In this document: in pieces, positions 14,277 to 41,142 of the stretch
Position numbering within the stretch: position 1 is the first letter of the stretch
How the letters are laid out: every line of letters begins with the position of its first letter
Assembly: GCF_000271665.2 (NCBI RefSeq)
Contig: NZ_CP010978.1
Coordinates: 3,812,501-3,876,500 of the forward strand
Direction: 5' to 3'
DNA length: 64,000 nucleotides
Origin: Pelosinus fermentans JBW45
Lineage (GTDB): Bacteria; Bacillota; Negativicutes; DSM-13327
Translations under genes and position numbers: made by a program
Notes under the pieces: generated by a model
The model's input: the letters and a program-made list of their open reading frames with translations, nothing else
What the model was told of the DNA's origin: nothing
The model's database searches: none

Positions 14277-15419
14277 TCAATGTCCTTCAAAGATCTCAAT
14301 TAAGCTCTTCACTGCCATGGTGGCGGAAATGCGCCCTTCTATCACATCTTGTTCAATTATTGGCTTTTTTTGAATTACTTCGGGATGATTCATAAATAAG
14401 GTTTGTAAATATTCTTGCACCATGGATTGTACCCAGCTTAACATTTGCGTCCGACGTCGTCTTTCAAAGATTCCAGATGCTGCAGTTACTTTCTGGAACT
14501 TTTCAATCATCCGCCAAACCTCTTCCACTCCCTCACCAGTATATGCGGAACAAGTATGTCCTTTCGTAACCCATCCTTCTGTAGCGGGACGCAAAAAATG
14601 CAAGATGCGGTCATAATCTACTTTCGCCATCAAAGCCTTCTGCTTGTTATCACCGTCTGCCTTATTGATTACAATGGCATCCGCTAATTCAATGACTCCT
14701 TTTTTCATACCTTGCAGTTCATCTCCTGCTCCAGTGATCATCAGCAAGAGGAAAAAATCAACCATAGAGCGAACTGTTACTTCGCTTTGCCCTACACCAA
14801 CGGTTTCAATTAACAGTACATCATAGCCACCAGCTTCACATAGCAGAATCGTTTCCCGGCTTTTACGAGTTACCCCTCCCAATGTTCCGCTTGAAGGAGA
14901 AGGTCTGATAAAAGCTCTTGGGTCACGAGAGAGTTGTTCCATGCGAGTCTTATCTCCTAAAATACTGCCCTTCGTTACCGTACTGCTAGGATCAACTGCC
15001 AGCACTGCCACTTTATGCCCTTTATTACACAATTGACACCCCAGAGCCTCAATAAAAGTACTTTTGCCGGCTCCCGGGACACCAGTAATCCCTACGCGGA
15101 CAGATTTGCCTGTATGAGGCAGCAACTGTTTTAATATTTCCTGGGCCAGCTCCATGTGAGCTGGCAAATTACTTTCAATGAGTGTGATCGCTCTGGACAG
15201 CATAACCCGATTGCCACTCAATACACCTTGAACATATTCATCTACGGAAGGCTGGCGACGAACGGTTCGAGGCTGAAAAGACATATCTGTTTTTTCCTGG
15301 TTCTGCATACCATCATGCCGACTCTGAATTCCGCCCATAACTTCTGTAGTAAAGGCCTCTCCTGCATTGGCTGGAATCCATTCCGGCTTCCACCGATCCT
15401 TCTTCTCTTCATGATTCAT
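14277..15419 (-). CDS. meaB: Methylmalonyl-CoA mutase-associated GTPase MeaB/ArgK
   Basis: This is a 380-aa G3E-type P-loop GTPase that protects and reloads adenosylcobalamin in methylmalonyl-CoA mutase. The Walker A sequence GVPGAGKS is at residues 113-120, followed by the DPSS and IETVGVGQSE switch segments and the NKAD guanine-specificity motif. The C-terminal helical arm is the dimerisation element of the family. About 55 extra residues precede the usual family start; a start at the internal methionine near residue 46 is possible. It begins one base after the mutB stop, so it is translationally coupled to its client enzyme. Confidence 0.93.
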   Translation of the reverse strand: MNHEEKKDRWKPEWIPANAGEAFTTEVMGGIQSRHDGMQNQEKTDMSFQPRTVRRQPSVDEYVQGVLSGNRVMLSRAITLIESNLPAHMELAQEILKQLLPHTGKSVRVGITGVPGAGKSTFIEALGCQLCNKGHKVAVLAVDPSSTVTKGSILGDKTRMEQLSRDPRAFIRPSPSSGTLGGVTRKSRETILLCEAGGYDVLLIETVGVGQSEVTVRSMVDFFLLLMITGAGDELQGMKKGVIELADAIVINKADGDNKQKALMAKVDYDRILHFLRPATEGWVTKGHTCSAYTGEGVEEVWRMIEKFQKVTAASGIFERRRRTQMLSWVQSMVQEYLQTLFMNHPEVIQKKPIIEQDVIEGRISATMAVKSLIEIFEGH

Positions 15420-15420
15420 C

Positions 15421-17607
15421 TCATTTCACTTCCTGTGAATAACGTCCTAACTCTTTTAATATTTTCTCTGCTGCTACCGGAATAATGGTTCCTGGTCCAA
15501 AAATGGCTGCGGCTCCATTTTCTCGCAAGAACTCATAATCTTGGGCCGGGATAACCCCACCGATGACAACCATAATATCTTCTCGTCCAAGTTTCTTTAG
15601 TTCTTCAATGAGCTGTGGCAGCAACGTTTTATGTCCAGCTGCCAATGAACTCATACCTACTACGTGAACATCATTATCGACGGCTTGCTGTGCGGTTTCT
15701 TCTGCGGTTTGGAACAAAGGTCCGATATCTACGTCAAATCCCATATCGGCAAAGGCAGTTGATATTACTTTTGCTCCTCGATCATGGCCATCCTGCCCCA
15801 TTTTGGCAATCATAATTCTTGGGCGGCGACCTTCCGTTTTTTCAAACTCATCAGCCATGGCCCTTACTTTATTGATCGTTTCTTCTTCGGCAAACTCACT
15901 GCTATATACCCCGGAAATCGAGCGGATAATCGCCTTATGCCGTCCGGCAACGTGCTCAATGGCATCGGAAATCTCACCTAAACTCGCTCTGGCTCTTGTT
16001 GCTTCAATGGCCAGTGCCAATACATTTCCTTCTCCTGTTTCCATGGATTTTGTAATGGCCTCCAAGGAGCGTCTAACTCTATCATTATCCCGATTGCTGC
16101 GTAGCTTTTCCAAACGCTGAATTTGAGACAGACGAACGGCTGTATTATCTACGGACAAAATATCAAGAGGATCTTCTTTTTCCAGCCGATACCGATTGAC
16201 TCCTACAATCGTTTCCCTGCCTGAGTCAATATGTGCCTGACGTCTTGCCGCTGCTTCTTCAATTCTCATTTTAGGAAGCCCTGTGTCAATCGCCTTGGAC
16301 ATGCCTCCTAATCGTTCTACTTCCTGAATATGACTCCATGCTCTTTTAACCAATTCATTCGTCAAAGCTTCTACATAATAAGAGCCGCCCCATGGATCGA
16401 GAACTTTACAAACCATGGTTTCATCCTGAATATAAAGCTGCGTATTACGAGCTATTCGGGCAGAGAAGTCTGTAGGCAAAGCAATGGCCTCATCCAGTGC
16501 ATTGGTATGCAGTGACTGTGTATGACCAAGGGCAGCTCCCATAGCTTCCATGCAAGTGCGTCCTACATTGTTAAAAGGATCCTGCTCGGTCAGGCTCCAA
16601 CCTGAAGTTTGGGAGTGAGTCCTAAGGGCCATGGATTTTGGGTTTTTAGGATTAAATTGTTTAATAATCTTAGCCCATAGCAAACGTCCTGCCCGCATTT
16701 TGGCTACTTCCATAAAATAATTCTTACCAATCGCCCAGAAAAAAGATAGCCGCGGAGCAAAAGCATCCACATCCATGCCTGCCTTAATTCCTGTTTTAAT
16801 ATACTCCAAACCATCGGCTAAGGTATAACCAAGTTCAATATCCGCAGTAGCTCCTGCTTCTTGCATATGGTAGCCGGAAATACTAATACTATTAAACTTT
16901 GGCATAAACTGTGAAGTATAAGAGAATATATCTGCAATGATGCGCATGGATGGCTCAGGTGGATAGATATAGGTATTACGCACCATGAATTCTTTCAAGA
17001 TATCATTTTGAATGGTACCTGTTAGTAACTCCTGTTTTACCCCTTGCTCTTCTGCTGCCACAATATAAAAAGCCAATATCGGCAGCACAGCCCCATTCAT
17101 TGTCATGGATACTGACATCTTATCCAAAGGGATACCTGAGAATAAAATTTCCATATCTAAGATGGAATCAACAGCAACACCGGCCTTTCCTACATCCCCC
17201 ACAACACGGGGATGATCAGAATCATAACCTCTATGGGTCGCCAAATCAAAAGCAATGGACAGACCTTTTTGCCCGGCAGCCAGGTTCCGCCGATAAAAGG
17301 CATTACTTTCCTCAGCAGTGGAAAATCCTGCATATTGACGCACGGTCCATGGTCTTAGCACATACATATTAGCATAGGGCCCCCGCAAGAAGGGCGCGAT
17401 TCCAGCTACATAAGGCAAATGATCGATTCCCTCGAGATCAGCTTTGGTATATAAAGGTTTCAGATTGATTTGCTCCATCGTCTTAAATTCTAATTCATCG
17501 AGCAACTTACCGCTGTTACGTTCCACTTCTTTCTGCCAGGCAGATATATCGGAAGAGTCAAAGTCTTTTCGGCAAGAGATTTTAGTAAAATCTGGTTTTA
17601 TTAACAT
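15421..17607 (-). CDS. mutB: Methylmalonyl-CoA mutase, large (catalytic, B12-binding) subunit
   Basis: The 728-aa protein interconverts succinyl-CoA and methylmalonyl-CoA, the carbon rearrangement of propionate fermentation. The N-terminal TIM barrel carries the substrate-channel sequence [20 protein letters not shown], and the C-terminal Rossmann domain carries DGHDRG, the D-x-H-x-x-G motif whose His is the lower cobalt ligand, followed by GMSSLAAGH. The ATG overlaps the mutA stop by one base (TAATG). The length is normal for the alpha subunit. No epimerase or methylmalonyl-CoA decarboxylase gene is in the window. Confidence 0.96.
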
Positions 17608-19784
17608 TACACAATACCTCTATCTTTCTGAAGTTTGGCAAGCATTTTATAACAATTGGCTCTAACATGGATAAAATCGTCGACCCCAGCTTCTTTGTAC
17701 ACCAGTTGCAAATCTTCTGAAGGTAAACCTGCTAAAAATAATGTGATCTGAGGATTGCCGTCCTTAATAAGTTTAGCCAAAGGTGGTACCAATTCCGGAT
17801 AGGTGGCATCTGTTGAGCAAATGACAGCAATTGTTGCCCCGGACTTCAAAGCAGCCTTAGCCGCTTCTTCTACCGTAGCAAAACCATTGTTTTTCAACAT
17901 GGTAAAAGCGCCTACCTCTAAAAAGCCGCTGACAAAATCGGCTCGCGCCTTATGCTGAGGAATTTCTCCCATATTAACAAGGAATACCTCTACATTCTTG
18001 CCTGTTCTTTCGATATAGGATTCTGTACGCTGGCGTAATTGCCTAAATTGTTCGTCAGCTGAATGAACCTTCATAGGGTTAATTGATGTTACACTCTGAT
18101 TTTTACGAATCGCATTCGTAATATCCCCCAATGTAGCTCCGCTAAGAATAGCAGTAATGGCTGCCTCTAAAAGAGATTTTTCTGCTGTCCCCTTCAATGA
18201 TAACTGCTCCACTTCTGCTAATCTGCTTTTATATTCTACATCGTCAATATCTTGGCGATAGTCATTAATTTGGTTCTTACGCTGCTCTTTGAAAATATTA
18301 GCAGCAAAAACAGGAACCTCCAATGGTTTTTCCAGCAGATTGGGATACATATTGGTTCCTAAAATGACATCTTTACGCTTGGCCAGACCATCTGCCTTGC
18401 TTTTCGCTGTAGCTTCTACCCGCTCCTGAGGCAAGTTTTGCTGCAAGGATTCCATAATACCCCCGACTGCTTCTACCTCTTGAAACAAGGTCCAGGTCTT
18501 TTCGGCTACTGCACTCGTTAAGTTTTCTATATACCAAGATCCGCCCGCCGGATCAACAGGCTGCGTCAAATTGCATTCCTGCTGCAGCATGATTTGTGTA
18601 TTGCGGGCAATACGATGAGAAAAATCATCTGCTGGTCGTATGGCCTCGTCAAAATAACCTACATGCAAACTATCCACACCGCCTACAATAGCAGAAAAGG
18701 CTTCTGTGGTTGTCCTAAGCATATTTACATAAGGATCATAGACACTTTTTGTAAAAGCAGAAGTTCGTGCATGAATATACATTTTTTGCGCCTCTTGGGT
18801 TCCGCCGAAAGCCTCAACAATCTGCGCCCACAACATACGTCCAGCTCTGAGTTTAGCAATTTCCATAAAGAAATTAGTACCTACCGAGAAGGAAAAAGCG
18901 ATCTGTTTAGCAGCGACATCAATAGCAACGCCTCGCTGCTGCATTTTTTGCAAATATTCCACACCAGTGGCTAATACAAAAGCTAACTCTTGTACTGCAT
19001 TTGCACCACTATTATGATACGGCTGTCCTTGTACCAGTATCGTTCTTAATTGTTTTGTATTATCGTGAGCCCAGTTAGCCGTCGCTGCCATTTCATCATA
19101 GTAGGCATCTAAAGGATAGGATAATTCACCCACTGTAGCCAAATATCCGATTGGATCTACACCAATGCAGCCTTTTAACTGATGATAATCTCGACCATTG
19201 GCTTTCATTAAGGCGACAAATAAACTGAGCAGCTGCATACCAGAAGTACCCGCAAAGATCAATAATGGAGTTTTTTCTAAATCAAAACCATGAAAAGCCT
19301 GCTGTACATCATCTAAGGTTGATAAAGATATGCCTTTGCCTAGATACGTATCATCGGCTTTGTCACCATCGATGCCATTCAAGGTTGCTTTGTCGGCGAC
19401 TACATGAATGGTTGTTCCACCCTTATTTAACTCCTGCTGCAGAGCTTCATGCATTTTCACAGCAAAAGGTTCGGCACACTCTTGGCTGATCTCCCATGGT
19501 TTGTCTAAATATCCCATAGCGTTGGATCCTCGTACAAAAGGAAAGCTGCCAGGCAAGGATTCACAATGAGTTAATCCTTCCAAATCTTCCATCCGATACA
19601 TTGGCTGTAAATTAATACCTTCATAGGTTTTGGTGATTAGCTTTTTCTCCCAATTGGCTCCTTTTAGTGCTTTTTCTGACTCAGCCCGCCATTCTTCATA
19701 GGTGGGATAGGGAAATTCCGCAAAGAACCGTGTTGGCGGCTCTTCATGATCTGTTTCTTTCTTCTCTACATTCTGATTTGACAT
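17607..19784 (-). CDS. mutA: Methylmalonyl-CoA mutase, small subunit
   Basis: This is the structural partner of MutB (about 725 aa). It has the TIM-barrel fold and a degenerate cobalamin domain: where MutB has DGHDRG this protein reads [12 protein letters not shown], without the D-x-H-x-x-G cobalt ligand, as expected for the beta subunit. The frame is open up to 19874, but that would overlap the preceding gene by 38 bp. The preferred start is ATG 19784 (GGTGA upstream); ATG 19799 is an alternative. The sequence [12 protein letters not shown] marks the conserved N-terminus. It is co-transcribed with the DnaA-N-like gene, mutB and meaB behind the cobalamin riboswitch. Confidence 0.94.
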
Positions 19785-19836
19785 ACTTTCACCATCCATT
19801 TCATCATCATTCTCTAGCTTTTCATTCAATAATCCA

Positions 19837-20115
19837 TTAAGGCTGACTGATAATCTGTACTCGATCCACACCAAAGCTGGAACGAATCAGCGGCACGAAC
19901 CTGCTCTCAATTATCGATCGATACATTTCCTTCTTCGTAATAAGCAGTAACATACCATTGGCTTTCCTTACACGAATCAAGGAATTAATATATTTTTCAA
20001 ATTCTGCAGGCAGCATCTGCTCTTTTAATGCATACAATCCTGCCAATAACTCCGGGGATTCTTGTTCTATTCGTTCTACCAAAGGCGTAAATGGTTCCCA
20101 TTTCAGCATATCCAC
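19837..20115 (-). CDS. Stand-alone DnaA N-terminal-domain-like small protein
   Basis: This 92-aa protein is the first gene after the cobalamin riboswitch. Its pattern follows the N-terminal domain of the replication initiator DnaA: an amphipathic helix (ALKEQMLPAEFEKYINSLIR), a short strand pair (MLLLITKK), and a helix ending RSIIESRFVPLIRSSF, the counterpart of the FxxEWIESRYLPLI helix in DnaA, then a final strand (VQIIS). No AAA+ or DNA-binding domain follows. The GTG start at 20115 has AGAGG eight bases upstream; ATG 20109 is an alternative. DnaA-N is a protein-interaction domain, so a role as an adaptor for the mutase or its GTPase is conceivable but untested. The similarity was judged by eye. 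Confidence 0.6.
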   Translation of the reverse strand: MDMLKWEPFTPLVERIEQESPELLAGLYALKEQMLPAEFEKYINSLIRVRKANGMLLLITKKEMYRSIIESRFVPLIRSSFGVDRVQIISQP

Positions 20116-20201: not shown

Positions 20202-20227
20202 AAGCTCCCAGCATAGGCCGAGAGCTT
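20202..20227 (-). terminator. Riboswitch expression-platform terminator of the mut operon
   Basis: An 11-bp stem (AAGCTCTCGGC with GCTGGGAGCTT) and a 4-nt loop are followed by TTTTTTATTTTG on the minus strand. It sits between the cobalamin aptamer and the first gene, so B12 binding probably favours premature termination. Confidence 0.8.
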
Positions 20228-20309
20228 AAACGCAAGTATAGAAATAGTATTAATAAAGCCTGGCTATTCATAAAACAGCCAGGACGAAAAAAACGCGAAT
20301 CTTGCGCGT

Positions 20310-20525
20310 AAATCCCCTCCCCATCTCTCGCAGGTCAATCGGTGATTGCTATATAGGCAGTTCTCCTGACTTTGGATCATTGCTTACCCATACCTTCCCA
20401 GAATAATTACTCCAGTGGCATAAAAATGGGTTTGCTCCTCATTACAGTGGCGGGACCGCGCCGGAATTGAACCGGACTTCCCTATTAAGCCCCAAAGGGC
20501 ACCTATACCATCCATATGAAATTTT
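20310..20525 (-). promoter_or_regulatory. Cobalamin riboswitch upstream of the mutase operon
   Basis: Read on the minus strand, this holds the cobalamin aptamer landmarks in order: GGTGCCC, the GGGAAG-tCCGG arm, the GTCCCGCCACTGTAATGAG core, and the B12 box region AGTCAGGAGAACTGCC, ending in CCTGCGAGAGATGGGGAGGGG. Together with the downstream terminator it should repress transcription when cobalamin is plentiful. Confidence 0.95.
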
Positions 20526-20543
20526 AGATACGTTACATTATTC

Positions 20544-20572
20544 ACTTTATAATATCTTTATAGAATTGTCAA
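20544..20572 (-). promoter_or_regulatory. Promoter of the B12-controlled mut operon
   Basis: TTGACA (20567-20572) and TAAAGT (20544-20549) are separated by 17 bp just upstream of the riboswitch. The second cobalamin riboswitch in the window has the identical -35, spacing and -10. Confidence 0.7.
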
Positions 20573-21871: not shown

Positions 21872-22852
21872 CTAAATGCCGTTTTTCCCTGATTGCGGCT
21901 TTAATAAATGGCAGGCAGCACTGTGCCCTGGCCAAAGCTCCTCGAGCACCGGTTTTTCTCTTCTACATAGTTCCATGCTTTCCGGGCACCTGCTCTGAAA
22001 CGAGCACCCTGGCGACAAGTCAAGAGGGCTTGGTATCTCGCCCTCCAGCGACCGGACCATTGTGCCCCCTTTTTTCTTCACCGGAAAAACCGCCTGCAGC
22101 AACGCCTTCGTATAAGGATGCTTCGCTTCACTCAGTACGTCGCCTGCAAGCACCTCTACTATATTACCGAGATACATTACAGCAATACGATGGCTTATTT
22201 GCGATACGAGTGCTAAATCATGACAGATAAAAATCATAGACAGATTCTTTTCCCGCTGTATTCTGACCAGAAGCTCTATAATCTTTTTCTGCACCGATAC
22301 ATCCAGTGCACTGGTCGCCTCATCACAAACGAGAATTTCCGGTTCAAGCGCCAGCGCCCGGGCAATCCCGATGCGCTGACGCTGTCCCCCACTCATGTTG
22401 CCGGGATAGCGGTCGGCAAACTCTTCCGGCAGCTCAACCATACACAAAAGTTCTTCAGCCTTTTTTCCCGCCTCCCGGTCTTTTATCAGCTTAAAGTTGC
22501 GCAACGGCTCGCAAAGGATATCTTTTATCTTCATCTTTGGATTAAAGGCCTGGGAGGGGTCCTGAAACACCATCTGAATATGCCGCCGGCTTTGCCGCAT
22601 ACGCTCTCCCGTAAGCCGGGTCAGATCCTCTCCCCGATAGCAGATAGCTCCACTTGTCGGCGCATGAAGCTGCATGATCAGCTTTACCAGCGTACTTTTA
22701 CCGCAGCCGCTTTCGCCAACAACGCCGAGCGTTTCCCCCTGATAAAGCGATAACGAAACATCATCACAGGCTGTCAGCATGCGCCCTTCAGCTACCGGAA
22801 AACGCTTTATGACATGCTCGACTGTTAAAATCGTCTCCTTGTCAGCTGACAT
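21872..22852 (-). CDS. ABC transporter ATP-binding protein (NikE/DppF type)
   Basis: The second ATPase of a nickel/peptide-type importer. It has Walker A GESGCGKST, signature MSGGQRQRIG, Walker B ILVCDEATSALD, and the C-terminal oligopeptide/dipeptide extension with the Cys-containing sequence CSFQSRCPESMELC. ATG 22852 is preferred because GGAGGGAAG precedes it; it overlaps the upstream ATPase by 11 bp. An upstream ATG at 22882 exists without a good ribosome binding site. It should pair with the 22842-23630 product to power the two permeases. Confidence 0.9.
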   Translation of the reverse strand: MSADKETILTVEHVIKRFPVAEGRMLTACDDVSLSLYQGETLGVVGESGCGKSTLVKLIMQLHAPTSGAICYRGEDLTRLTGERMRQSRRHIQMVFQDPSQAFNPKMKIKDILCEPLRNFKLIKDREAGKKAEELLCMVELPEEFADRYPGNMSGGQRQRIGIARALALEPEILVCDEATSALDVSVQKKIIELLVRIQREKNLSMIFICHDLALVSQISHRIAVMYLGNIVEVLAGDVLSEAKHPYTKALLQAVFPVKKKGGTMVRSLEGEIPSPLDLSPGCSFQSRCPESMELCRREKPVLEELWPGHSAACHLLKPQSGKNGI

Positions 22853-23630
22853 AGCTCTTCCCTCCAACCTGCGGTACCGCATCTAACAGCTCTTTTGTAT
22901 ACACCGACTGTGGCCGGGCGATAATGTCATCCGTTCTACCGGATTCTACGATCTCTCCTGCTTGCATGACAATCAGCTTATCCGACATATACGCTGCCAC
23001 ACCAATATTATGTGTAACAATAATGATTGCCGTTTTGTCTTGTTGGCAAATCTCCATCATTTCTTTTACCACCTGTGCCTGCGTTGTCACATCCAGAGCA
23101 GATGTAGGCTCATCCGCCAGCAGAAGCCGCGGTTTAAAAACCATCGCCATTGCAACGCCGACACGCTGGCGCATACCGCCGCTCAGTTCAAACGGATAGC
23201 TTTTCATAATGTTTTCCTGATTAGGCAAGTGCATTTTCCTGAGCATATCTTCTGCTTCCTTGGCTGCTTCCTTTTTTGTCAGCGGCGAGTGTTCACGTAT
23301 ATACTCTATGAACTGGCTGCCGATACGGGCGATAGGATCCAGTATGCTGCCGCTGTCCTGAAAGACCATAGTTGCCCTTGTTCCACAGAGGCGGCACCAC
23401 TCAGCAGTAGTATTCTCCAATAGATTTTTTCCTTCAAAGAGAATTTTCCCGCCGCTTACACGCCCATCATGTGGCAGGCAGCCAAGAATCGCGCGGATAA
23501 CCGTTGTCTTGCCGCTGCCGCTTTCGCCTACAATTGCAAGAACCTCGCCTTCATCAAGCGATAAATTCACATTTCGGACGATTTCACGTTCCCCATAGGA
23601 TACTGAAAGCTCCGATACTTCTAGCAACAT
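22842..23630 (-). CDS. ABC transporter ATP-binding protein (NikD/DppD type)
   Basis: A 262-aa ATPase with Walker A GESGSGKTT, signature LSGGMRQRVG and Walker B LLLADEPTSALDVTT. ATG 23630 has GGAG seven bases upstream, just after the binding-protein gene. It is the first of the two different ATPases of the importer. Its shorter C-terminus compared with DppD resembles NikD. Confidence 0.9.
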   Translation of the reverse strand: MLLEVSELSVSYGEREIVRNVNLSLDEGEVLAIVGESGSGKTTVIRAILGCLPHDGRVSGGKILFEGKNLLENTTAEWCRLCGTRATMVFQDSGSILDPIARIGSQFIEYIREHSPLTKKEAAKEAEDMLRKMHLPNQENIMKSYPFELSGGMRQRVGVAMAMVFKPRLLLADEPTSALDVTTQAQVVKEMMEICQQDKTAIIIVTHNIGVAAYMSDKLIVMQAGEIVESGRTDDIIARPQSVYTKELLDAVPQVGGKSYVS

Positions 23631-23652
23631 TTCAGTTCTCCTTCGTGTGATA

Positions 23653-25224
23653 TTATTTTTTAGCGGGTTTAATCTTATTGGTCAGCCAATAGTAATCGGA
23701 CGGATACATCTGGGCGCCTTCAATCGAGGTTGAACTGATGATGTTTGTTTCCGGATAGCCCAGAAACAAAGCGGCCCCGTCGTTCATAATGATCTGCTGA
23801 CAATCGATGATTAGCTGACGGCGTTGTTGACGGTCAAAGGTTGTGGAAAGTTCGGCGAACTTTGTATCCAGTGCTGGATTGCTGTAACCGGAGCCGTTCT
23901 GTGGATTATCGCCGTTTCTATTCGTTTTCCAGTACCAATTTAAGAAGATCTCCGGATCGCCGGTATTGGCCGTCGTAATGTTTGAAATCAAAAGCCCATA
24001 TTCGCCATTAATCCCCATTTTATCGATTAAGTTATAGTCTACCGACTTGATTTTCACATCAAAACCAACCTTCTTTGCATCAGACTGCACAGCCTCAGCA
24101 TAGATGGGCAGTTCAGCACGGCTGTTGTATACCACAAAATCTACCGTAAGTTTCTTTCCATCCTTTTCCAAGATACCATCGCCGTCAGTATCCTTCCAGC
24201 CCGCTTCGGCCAACAGCTGTTTCGAACGCTCGATATTATAGCTGTTCGGATCCTTGAGCTGATCAAAAGCGTAATCCATCGACGGCGGAACTGGTGCTTT
24301 TCCTTCAATAAAGGTCCCCTTTAGAATAACTTCATTGTACACTTTTCTATCGCAGGCACTGATAAATGCCGCACGAACCTTCGGATCACCCAAAACACCT
24401 TGTTGATTAATCCGGGCCAATACGGTACGCAGCGATGCAATTCTGTCAACATGGAATTTCGCTTTATCATTAAAAAGGCCAATGTCACCTGCCGCAATAT
24501 TGACCGCCATGTCGACCTCGCCGGATTGCAAAGCCATTGCCCGTGTGTTCGGATCGTCTATGGATGGGATTTCAACAGTCTCATAAGGTACTACGCCATC
24601 CCAGTAATAGGGATTTTTCACCATCACTGCTTTATCCTTGACAAAAGTCTTACACATATACGGACCGGTGCCAATAGGTCCTTCCTTGGCAAAATTACGT
24701 GCCGGCTCAGCCGATACATCCACAATTAAAAAAAGCGGATCAGCTAAAAATCCCGGCATATTGGGCTCCGGTTTTTCTGTAAGAATCGTAAGGGTTTGAC
24801 CCTCGGCCTTTATTTCTTTATACTTAAAAAACGTTACCGCCCGTTTATTCTTGGCAAAGGATCTTTCCAGCGATGCCTTAACAGCAGCCGCATCCAGCGG
24901 TTTGCCATTCGAGAATTTCACACCGTCTCTGATTTTAAATGTCCAGGTCATGTGGTCGGCACTGATCTGCCAGCTTTCAGCCAGCCACGGCTGTACATTC
25001 ATCTTTTCATCAAATTTCGCCAAACTCTCCCCGATGCCATAACGCATGACAACCCAGGCAAAATAATTTTCCGTTGGCTCCAGGGAATCGGCAAAGTTAG
25101 TTACACCAACTTTCAGAGTCTTTGTGTCGGCTTCCTTTTTACCGCTGCCGCTGCACCCCGCTATAAAGACCGCGGCTAAGCACACTACCATAAGTACTAA
25201 GGTTAACTTTCCTATTCTTTTCAA
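23653..25224 (-). CDS. Extracytoplasmic solute-binding lipoprotein, family 5 (NikA/OppA type)
   Basis: A 523-aa lipoprotein whose signal peptide ends in the lipobox IAGC (Cys24). The mature protein has the family 5 hallmarks: the SLAKFDEKMNVQPWLAESW entry, WTFKIRDGVKFSNGKPLDA, and IGTGPYM followed by NPYYWDG. The TTG start at 25224 has AAAGGATG upstream. Family 5 proteins bind peptides, nickel chelates, haem or other ligands; sequence reading alone does not settle which. B12-riboswitch control of the operon favours a cobalt, nickel or corrinoid-related ligand. Confidence 0.9.
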   Translation of the reverse strand: MKRIGKLTLVLMVVCLAAVFIAGCSGSGKKEADTKTLKVGVTNFADSLEPTENYFAWVVMRYGIGESLAKFDEKMNVQPWLAESWQISADHMTWTFKIRDGVKFSNGKPLDAAAVKASLERSFAKNKRAVTFFKYKEIKAEGQTLTILTEKPEPNMPGFLADPLFLIVDVSAEPARNFAKEGPIGTGPYMCKTFVKDKAVMVKNPYYWDGVVPYETVEIPSIDDPNTRAMALQSGEVDMAVNIAAGDIGLFNDKAKFHVDRIASLRTVLARINQQGVLGDPKVRAAFISACDRKVYNEVILKGTFIEGKAPVPPSMDYAFDQLKDPNSYNIERSKQLLAEAGWKDTDGDGILEKDGKKLTVDFVVYNSRAELPIYAEAVQSDAKKVGFDVKIKSVDYNLIDKMGINGEYGLLISNITTANTGDPEIFLNWYWKTNRNGDNPQNGSGYSNPALDTKFAELSTTFDRQQRRQLIIDCQQIIMNDGAALFLGYPETNIISSTSIEGAQMYPSDYYWLTNKIKPAKK

Positions 25225-25255
25225 GAAATCTCATCCTTTCCCATCTGTGTTTGAT

Positions 25256-26077
25256 TCAATTTGCCCGCTGCGGGTCCATGATATCGCGCAGGCTGTCTCC
25301 CCATAGATTAAAAATTGTTACTACAATCAGGATTGCAGCCCCCGGATAAAGCATCAGCCAGGGAGCTGTCTGGATATGCTGTCTTCCTTCATTGAGCATA
25401 AGACCCCATTCTGGCGTCGGCGGCTGCGCGCCAAAACCCAAAAAGGACAAGCCGGCCAATTCCATGATCATTGTACCGATGTCCATCGCGGCTGTCACAA
25501 CAATTGTCGGCAGGATATTAGGTAAAATATGGCGCCATAGAATATGGAGCGGTCTTGACCCGTTTGTTACAGCCGCGGCAATAAAATCACGCTGGCGCAG
25601 CTTCAGCGTAAGGCTGCGCCCCAAACGGGCGTACTTAGTCCAGCTGACCGCCGCCAATGCCAATATTGCATTAACGATATTGCCGCCCAGCATGCCGGCA
25701 ATGGCAATAGCCAGCACAATCCCTGGAAAAGCCAGCATCATATCGACAATGCGCATAAGTACAGTATCCACCTTTCCACCCATGTAACCCGCCAACACAC
25801 CGATAAAAGTTCCCACCACCGTTATAACGGCAACTAGCGAAAGCGTCATCATCAGCGAAGTTCGCGCCCCATAAATAATTCGAGATAGACAATCTCGCCC
25901 TAGCTTGTCCGTCCCAAACAAGTGATCGTCAGATGGTGCCTGCAGGGACTGCCGCATCACCGCATCATACGGATCATAAGGAGCCAACCAAGGTGCAAAA
26001 ATTGCAAAGCCGAGAATTAAAAGAACAAAAAATGTATAAAGCCAGAATAAGAATTTATCCTTTGTCAAACTTCCCAC
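25256..26077 (-). CDS. ABC transporter permease (NikC/DppC type)
   Basis: A 273-aa inner-membrane protein with about six hydrophobic segments. The FGTDKLGRDCLSRIIYGAR sequence is characteristic of DppC/NikC permeases, and the EAA-loop region RDFIAAAVTNGSRPLHILWR contacts the ATPases. The GTG start at 26077 immediately follows the NikB-type stop, with GGGGG upstream. Confidence 0.92.
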   Translation of the reverse strand: MGSLTKDKFLFWLYTFFVLLILGFAIFAPWLAPYDPYDAVMRQSLQAPSDDHLFGTDKLGRDCLSRIIYGARTSLMMTLSLVAVITVVGTFIGVLAGYMGGKVDTVLMRIVDMMLAFPGIVLAIAIAGMLGGNIVNAILALAAVSWTKYARLGRSLTLKLRQRDFIAAAVTNGSRPLHILWRHILPNILPTIVVTAAMDIGTMIMELAGLSFLGFGAQPPTPEWGLMLNEGRQHIQTAPWLMLYPGAAILIVVTIFNLWGDSLRDIMDPQRAN

Positions 26078-27019
26078 TCAGCATCCCCCTTTCTTCAGCC
26101 GCGGGTCAAGATACGTGTAGGAAATATCGACCAGCAAATTGATCCCCATATACAAAACAGCAATCCAGAGAACAAAGCCCTGTACCAGAGGATAATCACG
26201 CATCTCAATGGCATGTACGGCCATTTTGCCAAGTCCGGGCCAGGAAAAGACCATCTCAATGACAGCCACGCCACCCAGAAGCCAGCCAATTTGCAGGCCT
26301 AAAAGCGTAATAAGCGGCAGACATGCGTTTGGCAGCACATGCCTCCAGAGAATTTTGTGCATGGGAAATCCCCGTATCCGTGCCCCAGTGATATATTCCT
26401 GTCCCAGTTCCTCTAAAACCGCTGTACGCACCTGCCGTGTATATTTAGCCGCCATCGCAATGGCCAGCGTCAACGTAGGAAGCACCATCCTGTCGAATGA
26501 TACCTCTCCACCCGCTATCGGGAACAATCTCAGCTTCAGCCCCAAAACATATAACAAAATGAGTCCTACCCAAAAACTCGGCATGGATACGCCCAAAAAT
26601 GAAATGCCGCGAATAAGATAATCCAGCGGGCGGTTTCGATATACCGCCGACAATATCCCGCACGGAAGCGAGATCAGAAGCATCGTCACCGTCGCCGAGG
26701 CAGCAAGCACCATAGTTCCCGGAAGGCTTTGCCAGAGGCGGTCAGCTACCGGCATTTTTGCCGAATACGACATGCCCATATCTCCCTGTAATACACCTGC
26801 AAACCAGCGAAAATACTGTACATGAAACGGTTTGTCCAGCCCCAGCTGCGCCCGCGTCTCGGCAATTGTTTCCTCTGATACAATGGTGTCAGCTACCTCC
26901 AGCAGCATCTCTACAGGATCACCCGGTGACAGATACATCAGCGAAAATGTCAGCAGACTCACACCGAAAAGAGTAATAAGCATCTGCATTAAGCGATGTA
27001 CAAGCTCTTTTCCCTTCAA
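26078..27019 (-). CDS. ABC transporter permease (NikB/DppB type)
   Basis: A 313-aa permease and first gene of the transporter operon. N-terminal helix 1 is followed by the LSPGDPVEMLL segment and the periplasmic region typical of DppB/NikB; the EAA loop reads EYITGARIRGFPMHKILWR. The start is TTG 27019 with GGAGAGGGTGA upstream, close behind the riboswitch terminator. Confidence 0.92.
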   Translation of the reverse strand: MKGKELVHRLMQMLITLFGVSLLTFSLMYLSPGDPVEMLLEVADTIVSEETIAETRAQLGLDKPFHVQYFRWFAGVLQGDMGMSYSAKMPVADRLWQSLPGTMVLAASATVTMLLISLPCGILSAVYRNRPLDYLIRGISFLGVSMPSFWVGLILLYVLGLKLRLFPIAGGEVSFDRMVLPTLTLAIAMAAKYTRQVRTAVLEELGQEYITGARIRGFPMHKILWRHVLPNACLPLITLLGLQIGWLLGGVAVIEMVFSWPGLGKMAVHAIEMRDYPLVQGFVLWIAVLYMGINLLVDISYTYLDPRLKKGGC

Positions 27020-27104: not shown

Positions 27105-27310
27105 ATAAATCCCATCCCCATCTCTCGCAGGTCATATCGGTGATTTGTTATATAGGCAGTTCTCCTGACTCTGGATCATCGCTCTCCCAAACCTTCCCAA
27201 GATACTATCTCAGTGGCACAACATGGGTTTACTCCTCATTACAGTGGCGGGACCGTGTCGGCATTGAACCGAACTTCCCTATTAAGCCCCGAAGGGCACC
27301 TATACCAGCA
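27105..27310 (-). promoter_or_regulatory. Cobalamin riboswitch upstream of the ABC transporter operon
   Basis: It has the same landmarks as the riboswitch at 20310-20525: GGTGCCC, GGGAAGT, the GTCCCGCCACTGTAATGAG core, AGTCAGGAGAACTGCC and the CCTGCGAGAGATGGGGATGGG end. The two aptamers are close to identical through the core and differ mainly in peripheral helices. Confidence 0.95.
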
Positions 27311-27341
27311 ATATATAATTGTAATAGCCATTCTCATCGAT

Positions 27342-31078: not shown

Positions 31079-31251
31079 AACAGCCGCCTCCCGTACGTTA
31101 GAAACCCACTATTTACTTTTATGATAATATCGTAAAAAATATACCATCTCTAAAATTATTTTTATTTTTCTTCAAATTATGACATAATTCGCCCTTTTCA
31201 TGTGGTATCATTTTGTTTTAATACAACAATTATTCTTATTTTCTTAAATTA

Positions 31252-31326
31252 TATATTGGCAAACTTACTGAAAGGTAAGGACGCAAAGCTATAGGGTCTA
31301 AGGATTTTACAATCTATGATCGCCAC
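31252..31326 (+). promoter_or_regulatory. Cyclic-di-GMP-I (GEMM) riboswitch
   Basis: The sequence contains the aptamer core: GGCAAAC, GAAAGGTAAGGACGCAAAGC and GGGTCTAAGG, closed by GATCGCCA pairing back with TTGGC. It precedes a terminator and the HD-GYP gene on the same strand. The rest of the gap from 31079 is AT-rich and presumably contains both promoters. Confidence 0.93.
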
Positions 31327-31344
31327 GCTGCATATGATGAAAAG

Positions 31345-36329: not shown

Positions 36330-36485
36330 TCTCACAACCAGCAATGCAGATAGCACTCCATCCAAACTTGGATGACAGTCTTGCACTTATTCAATACAAA
36401 ACCAATAAACGGGTCTTGCCAAACCCTTCTACTTCGGCGGATATTCCTTTTTGCATCTTTCATCGCTGGCAACTCTAGATACATA
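36330..36485 (-). promoter_or_regulatory. Lysine riboswitch (L box) upstream of lysA
   Basis: On the minus strand the L-box landmarks appear in order: AGAGTTGCCAGCGATG, AAGATGC, GCCGAAG, GACTGTCATCC and GGATGGAGTGCTATC, closing with GCATTGCTGG. Followed by a terminator and lysA. Confidence 0.93.
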
Positions 36486-36538
36486 TTCTTAATATACCGC
36501 GCCTCTATCTTATCTCTATTTATCTTGTTATTTTTATA

Positions 36539-41002: not shown

Positions 41003-41022
41003 TACTTTCATCAACTACATAC

Positions 41023-41125
41023 ATTCATCAAGAGTTAGCCGAGGGTATTGGCCCGATGAAGCTACGGCAACCACCGCGCAATGCGAACGGTGCCAATTCC
41101 AACAGGAATTTCCTGGGAGATGAAG
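41023..41125 (+). promoter_or_regulatory. SAM riboswitch (S box)
   Basis: The S-box order is clear: TTCATCAAGAG, CCGAGGGTATTGGCCCGATGA, GCTACGGCAACC, the CGGTGCCAATTCC segment, and a closing GGGAGATGAA that pairs with TTCATC. It precedes a terminator and the aminotransferase-metQ genes. Confidence 0.93.
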
Positions 41126-41142
41126 ATCATTTTTGAAAATGG

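Follow-up and report, generated by a model that had tools for sequence, protein, structure and literature searches.

The cobalamin riboswitch-controlled methylmalonyl-CoA mutase operon of Pelosinus fermentans JBW45 is led by a small gene, referred to here as gene Q, whose 92-residue product belongs to a family with the stand-alone KH-like fold of DnaA domain I, as judged from sequence profiles and a predicted structure. It is a separate family, so far almost confined to Negativicutes, and is present beside DnaA. Its strongest link looks to be with the wider corrinoid regulon, not with replication and not with one enzyme. This reading follows from the recurrent linkage of Q to corrinoid loci; against it, many copies lie elsewhere, for example beside tyrS, and mutAB–meaB occurs without Q in many genomes. 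We put at about even the chances that Q is a repurposed domain I fold that assists, as a small accessory protein, in acquiring or using corrinoid and is probably made at low corrinoid. We advance more tentatively the broader proposal that a replication-initiator domain has become a separate small protein that helps to acquire corrinoid or to load corrinoid enzymes across Negativicutes, in several B12 operons.

The window is the whole stretch of DNA that was analysed, 64,000 nucleotides in length. The operon lies on its minus strand, with the following features:

20544–20572, minus strand: candidate sigma-70-like promoter, TTGACA-17-TAAAGT (consensus scan, 10/12 matches), weak because the scan finds 4 such sites against 2.9 expected from shuffles
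20339–20521, minus strand: cobalamin riboswitch aptamer (RF00174; 110 bits, E = 1.1e-26)
20202–20309, minus strand: three tandem terminator-like hairpins (20309–20293, 20283–20259 and 20227–20202), between the aptamer and gene Q
19837–20115, minus strand: gene Q, encoding the 92-residue stand-alone DnaA-domain-I-like protein; GTG start, with an alternative ATG at 20109
17607–19799, minus strand: mutA, methylmalonyl-CoA mutase small subunit; start uncertain, with the ATG at 19799 assumed
15421–17607, minus strand: mutB, methylmalonyl-CoA mutase large subunit with B12-binding domain (NF006944, 1308 bits; B12-binding domain, E = 1.2e-21)
14277–15419, minus strand: meaB, mutase-associated GTPase (PF03308, E = 3.6e-109)

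Gene Q therefore lies downstream of a cobalamin riboswitch and ahead of mutA–mutB–meaB, in the place between riboswitch and mutA that a sequence-only reading of this DNA had given it. An AGAGG motif is found about 7 nt 5′ of the GTG start, and about 50 nt separate the end of gene Q from the start of the mutA match; gene Q is probably co-transcribed with mutA–mutB–meaB. MutA matches MM_CoA_mutase (E = 8.7e-160) and the small-subunit model TIGR00642 (E = 1.8e-134, under the curated cut-off of that model). Five terminator-like hairpins were found in the scanned region, compared with 0.8 in shuffles, and the three tandem ones between the aptamer and gene Q are likely to form the expression platform, which by its appearance would terminate transcription.

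The dN/dS of gene Q is 0.06–0.26 (NG86, ten Pelosinus pairs), indicating that the gene is real and under purifying selection. The order riboswitch–Q–mutA is kept in all six Q-bearing Pelosinus genomes (G000, G001, G002, G004, G005 and G007). It was verified through mutB and meaB in five Pelosinus loci (the window, L068 from G002, L069 from G005, L100 and L101), while in the sixth (L102) mutA alone is seen 3′ of Q. The first Pelosinus loci were 1.5 kb long and stopped short of mutB, and what was listed there as mutB is a cross-hit on mutA. Thus gene Q is present in the mut operons of close relatives, yet tblastn did not find it in two of the eight Pelosinus genomes.

The sequence-only reading had also proposed that the protein resembles DnaA domain I, and this was borne out both by profiles and by the predicted fold. 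Alone, the protein scores 18.8 bits (E = 0.0013) against Pfam DnaA_N (PF11638), short of the gathering score of 24.6. The resemblance holds despite this score, because DnaA_N is matched by 29 of 37 family members at E ≤ 1 (best 3.8e-7) and because the AlphaFold2 model fits DnaA domain I best. Two other members pass the gathering score, at 30.3 and 29.8 bits. The top match of the family profile in the PDB is 4tps, B. subtilis DnaA domain I (E = 2.3e-4), and profile–profile comparison with the domain I of Negativicutes DnaA (hhalign) gives a probability of 91%; a search of PDB sequences with the single protein gave nothing useful. The helix sequence ESRFVPLI, singled out earlier as DnaA-like, corresponds in the alignment to ESRYLPII in the DnaA of the same genome. 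As had been stated, the 92-residue frame has no AAA+ or DNA-binding domain, and a Pfam search found no further Pfam domain. Fusions of Q to other domains were absent from the five loci inspected.

The AlphaFold2 model, which was built from eight sequences, has a pLDDT of 90.9. Foldseek placed two 4tps chains and 2jmp on top (best E = 1.8e-3), and VIA-align gave Z scores of 9.5 for 4tps_B, 8.7 for 2wp0_D and 7.1 for 2e0g, followed by ribosomal KH-like folds at 6–7. The model shares the helix-helix-strand-strand-helix-strand core of DnaA domain I (PF11638; PDB 4TPS, 2WP0, 2E0G and 2JMP), from which it differs by an extra predicted N-terminal helix containing the signature F-x-P-L-x-x-R, and by a genomic context that is mostly not one of replication. 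The N-terminal domain of DciA/DUF721 (7YKM, 8A3V) has a similar KH-like fold; however, this match (Z = 6.3 for 8A3V) falls short of that to DnaA domain I and is on a par with those to unrelated KH folds, and the families listed for the 37 members do not include DUF721.

We found homologues by tblastn with Q in 48 of 120 relatives' genomes (E ≤ 0.1), the weakest rows being DnaA itself or broken frames. The family profile matched 120 of 300 Negativicutes genomes, or 48 of 97 genera (E ≤ 0.001), a few rows being second hits on DnaA. Together with the low dN/dS, this number of homologues shows that gene Q is not a chance open reading frame. Candidates outside Negativicutes, in a 249-genome sample of the phylum, were rejected: the long frames that match the domain I part alone are DnaA. 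One Desulfotomaculaceae MAG contig encodes a Q-like frame, taking the contig assignment as it stands in the MAG, and a contig scan with a nine-row Q alignment gave seven loci. Among the papers searched, none pairs "DnaA N-terminal domain" with "cobalamin", and the listings from other literature searches named no such protein.

In 8 of 36 genomes (35 genera), Q follows a same-strand cobalamin riboswitch at a distance of no more than 750 nt, where the riboswitch counts under an even spread would predict 0.044. The eight are Pelosinus, G094, G048, G040 and four genera of family f11 (G068, G199, G259 and G247), and they represent families f1, f26, f24, f22 and f11. The gene 3′ of the riboswitch-linked Q is mutA in f1, f26 and f24, NifH/NifDK-like in f22, and in f11 either a degenerate MutA-like protein (two genera) or CbiK (two genera). 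The Poisson probability of 3e-16 overstates the case and is not relied on, since the 750-nt limit was chosen after the distances (246–720 nt) had been seen, the 36 genomes were hand-picked from the 48 Q-bearing genera and include all known linked cases, the genera are related, with f11 supplying four of the eight, and an even spread sets the expectation too low because cobalamin riboswitches, at 1 to 38 per genome, are often clustered. With the expectation raised a hundredfold, the eight observed are still about twice the number expected. To locate riboswitches we used a regular expression of two motifs, which gave the same counts as Rfam on 28 loci; this check is partly circular because the motifs were written from positive loci among those 28.

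Neighbourhoods were examined in 40 wider loci, then in 20 and a further 20. Selected neighbours were annotated by clustering and Pfam/NCBIfam, and reference proteins were used in tblastn to label all loci. Because these references were picked with the first neighbourhoods already in view, the label counts describe the loci and do not amount to a blind test. The gene order in f28 is Q–riboswitch–mutA–mutB–meaB–Q2, and in f15 (g77) and f11 (g92) it is mutA–mutB–meaB–Q. In f25, Q lies upstream of genes for CbiK, TP_methylase, CobB and BtuR, of which CobB and BtuR were assigned by cluster membership with annotated f35 proteins; in f35 it lies upstream of ExbB–ExbD–TonB, followed by TP_methylase–CobB–BtuR. 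Other neighbours include genes for SecA, amino-acid ABC proteins, an alpha/beta hydrolase, a sensor kinase and a TonB receptor. On a tree of 86 Q rows, which is derived from a short alignment, the mut label needs ten changes, each of which may be a gain or a loss, with at least seven forced by well-supported branches. Seventeen rows, in f15, are beside tyrS, and 39 have no reference gene within 1.5 kb, a figure that takes in the f35 rows because the reference set had none of their neighbours.

The connection to cobalamin-dependent metabolism suggested by the sequence-only reading stands as far as linkage to the corrinoid regulon goes, with mut linkage recurring in f26, f24, f28, f15 and f11; a mutase-only role is not supported, and we consider it unlikely that Q is a dedicated accessory factor of the mutase, for its assembly, cofactor loading or protection, with the other copies being paralogues or displaced genes. 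Such a factor would fit the presence of Q at either end of mut operons in those families and in f1, the two f11 genera in which it adjoins a degenerate MutA-like protein, and the short distance to mutA in Pelosinus. However, in 20 of 20 Negativicutes mut loci outside the linked set (L176–L195), from genomes in which Q is absent or located elsewhere, riboswitch–mutA–mutB–meaB is intact with no Q in the fetched stretch. Q is therefore not a required mutase subunit and is not always encoded with mutAB: the riboswitch-led mut operon is the common state, with Q as an optional neighbour, and many copies of Q are found apart from mut, among them those by CbiK, NifH/NifDK-like and ExbBD–TonB–CobB–BtuR genes. 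The Pelosinus locus shares its operon type and riboswitch class with known MutAB–MeaB operons (e.g. Veillonella parvula mutA, PMC9600662), but GTPase, adenosyltransferase and mutase domains are all missing from Q itself. The same variety of neighbours, the large tyrS-linked group and the weak points of the enrichment test could instead mean that Q is an unrelated housekeeping protein at operon ends, linked incidentally to corrinoid operons because these are numerous. We regard this as very unlikely, given the eight genomes observed where 0.044 are expected and the recurrence on separate branches.

The likeness to DnaA raises a further option, that Q imitates domain I and so ties replication initiation to corrinoid supply. 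DnaA domain I is a hub for DnaB, DiaA, HobA and SirA, and its dimerisation and partner residues have been listed in a review (PMC5448010). Using a mapping of Q columns to E. coli DnaA numbering made in this analysis, we found that most of the dimerisation and DnaB/DiaA/SirA-binding residues are replaced in Q. The dimerisation tryptophan (W6) is Trp in 29 of 29 DnaA rows and in none of 86 Q rows; no Q row has Trp, Phe or Trp at the positions of W25, F46 and W50, respectively, and the partner residue F46/F49 is Phe in 0/86. Q also has no counterpart of the linker of DnaA, and among its annotated neighbours the sole DNA replication or repair gene is recJ (L043). A link between replication initiation and cobalamin metabolism, as proposed earlier, is thus not supported, and we judge it highly improbable. 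A connection through the B12-dependent ribonucleotide reductase NrdJ was considered and set aside, TIGR02504 not being found in any of the eight Pelosinus genomes. The idea that Q supplies domain I in trans to a truncated DnaA was also rejected, since N-terminal sequence precedes AAA+ in all DnaA proteins inspected; Pfam did not detect DnaA_N in the DnaA proteins of G103, G071, G168, G111 and G083, where the N-terminal sequence is present and in several cases divergent. The residues that Q does conserve are its own: R13 is invariant, residue 64 is Arg in 81 and Lys in 5 of 86 rows, F79 is Phe in 85, and residue 85 is Arg or Lys in 74. The basic R13, R64 and R85, a median pI of 8.1, the KH-like fold and the ribosomal KH proteins in the second tier of fold matches would suit an RNA or single-stranded DNA binder acting on corrinoid-regulon transcripts; but net charge is near neutral in most members and E. 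coli DnaA domain I itself binds single-stranded DNA only weakly (PMC5448010), and this role appears quite unlikely.

Within the reading of Q as a corrinoid-linked accessory protein, the most likely function would be that of a small protein–protein adaptor or a chaperone that helps to acquire corrinoid or to load corrinoid enzymes. Its clients may be apo-MutAB/MeaB in Pelosinus, and elsewhere CbiK, NifH/NifDK-like proteins or the uptake machinery. A GFP reporter under the V. parvula mutA riboswitch is repressed by corrinoid when tested in B. subtilis (PMC9600662), which by analogy suggests that Q is probably made at corrinoid scarcity; with its tandem terminators, the Pelosinus riboswitch would allow Q, mutA, mutB and meaB all to be expressed under such scarcity. 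It is also conceivable that Q is an enzyme, a regulator or a nucleic-acid binder. If the accessory role is correct, Negativicutes, among them propionate-forming bacteria of gut and sediment, have a protein component in their B12 metabolism that has gone unrecognised, and a domain from replication has been put to use outside it. Gene Q also poses a concrete partner question within a riboswitch-controlled operon.

Several further observations were made on these loci. The loci L176–L195 place a B12-dependent enzyme behind the type of switch that represses on corrinoid in Veillonella. The MutA-like proteins that adjoin Q and a cobalamin riboswitch in two f11 genera (L087:8062–9798, plus strand, 579 residues; L095:8180–10075, plus strand, 632 residues) match only about positions 57–290 of the 512-position mutase profile, part of its first half. 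A 155-residue frame between meaB and Q (L081:7043–7510, plus strand) clusters with mutases by BLAST, and matches no Pfam family at E ≤ 1e-5. L040, L050 and L052 contain NifH and NifDK-like genes with CbiK or a TonB receptor near cobalamin riboswitches; the NifH-like protein of L040 is close to the nifH and CfbC models, and under both cut-offs.

The window also contains a second cobalamin riboswitch (27138–27318, minus strand), ahead of a five-gene ABC transporter of the peptide/nickel type (21872–27019, minus strand). Its binding protein is SBP_bac_5, and the other genes were judged from their translations. The cobalamin riboswitch of S. ovata nikA is among those tested previously (PMC9600662), making it plausible by analogy that this transporter is a corrinoid- or cobalt-related importer. 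The other riboswitches in the window are a lysine riboswitch (36343–36515, minus strand), a SAM riboswitch (41022–41126, plus strand) and a c-di-GMP-I riboswitch (31248–31335, plus strand).
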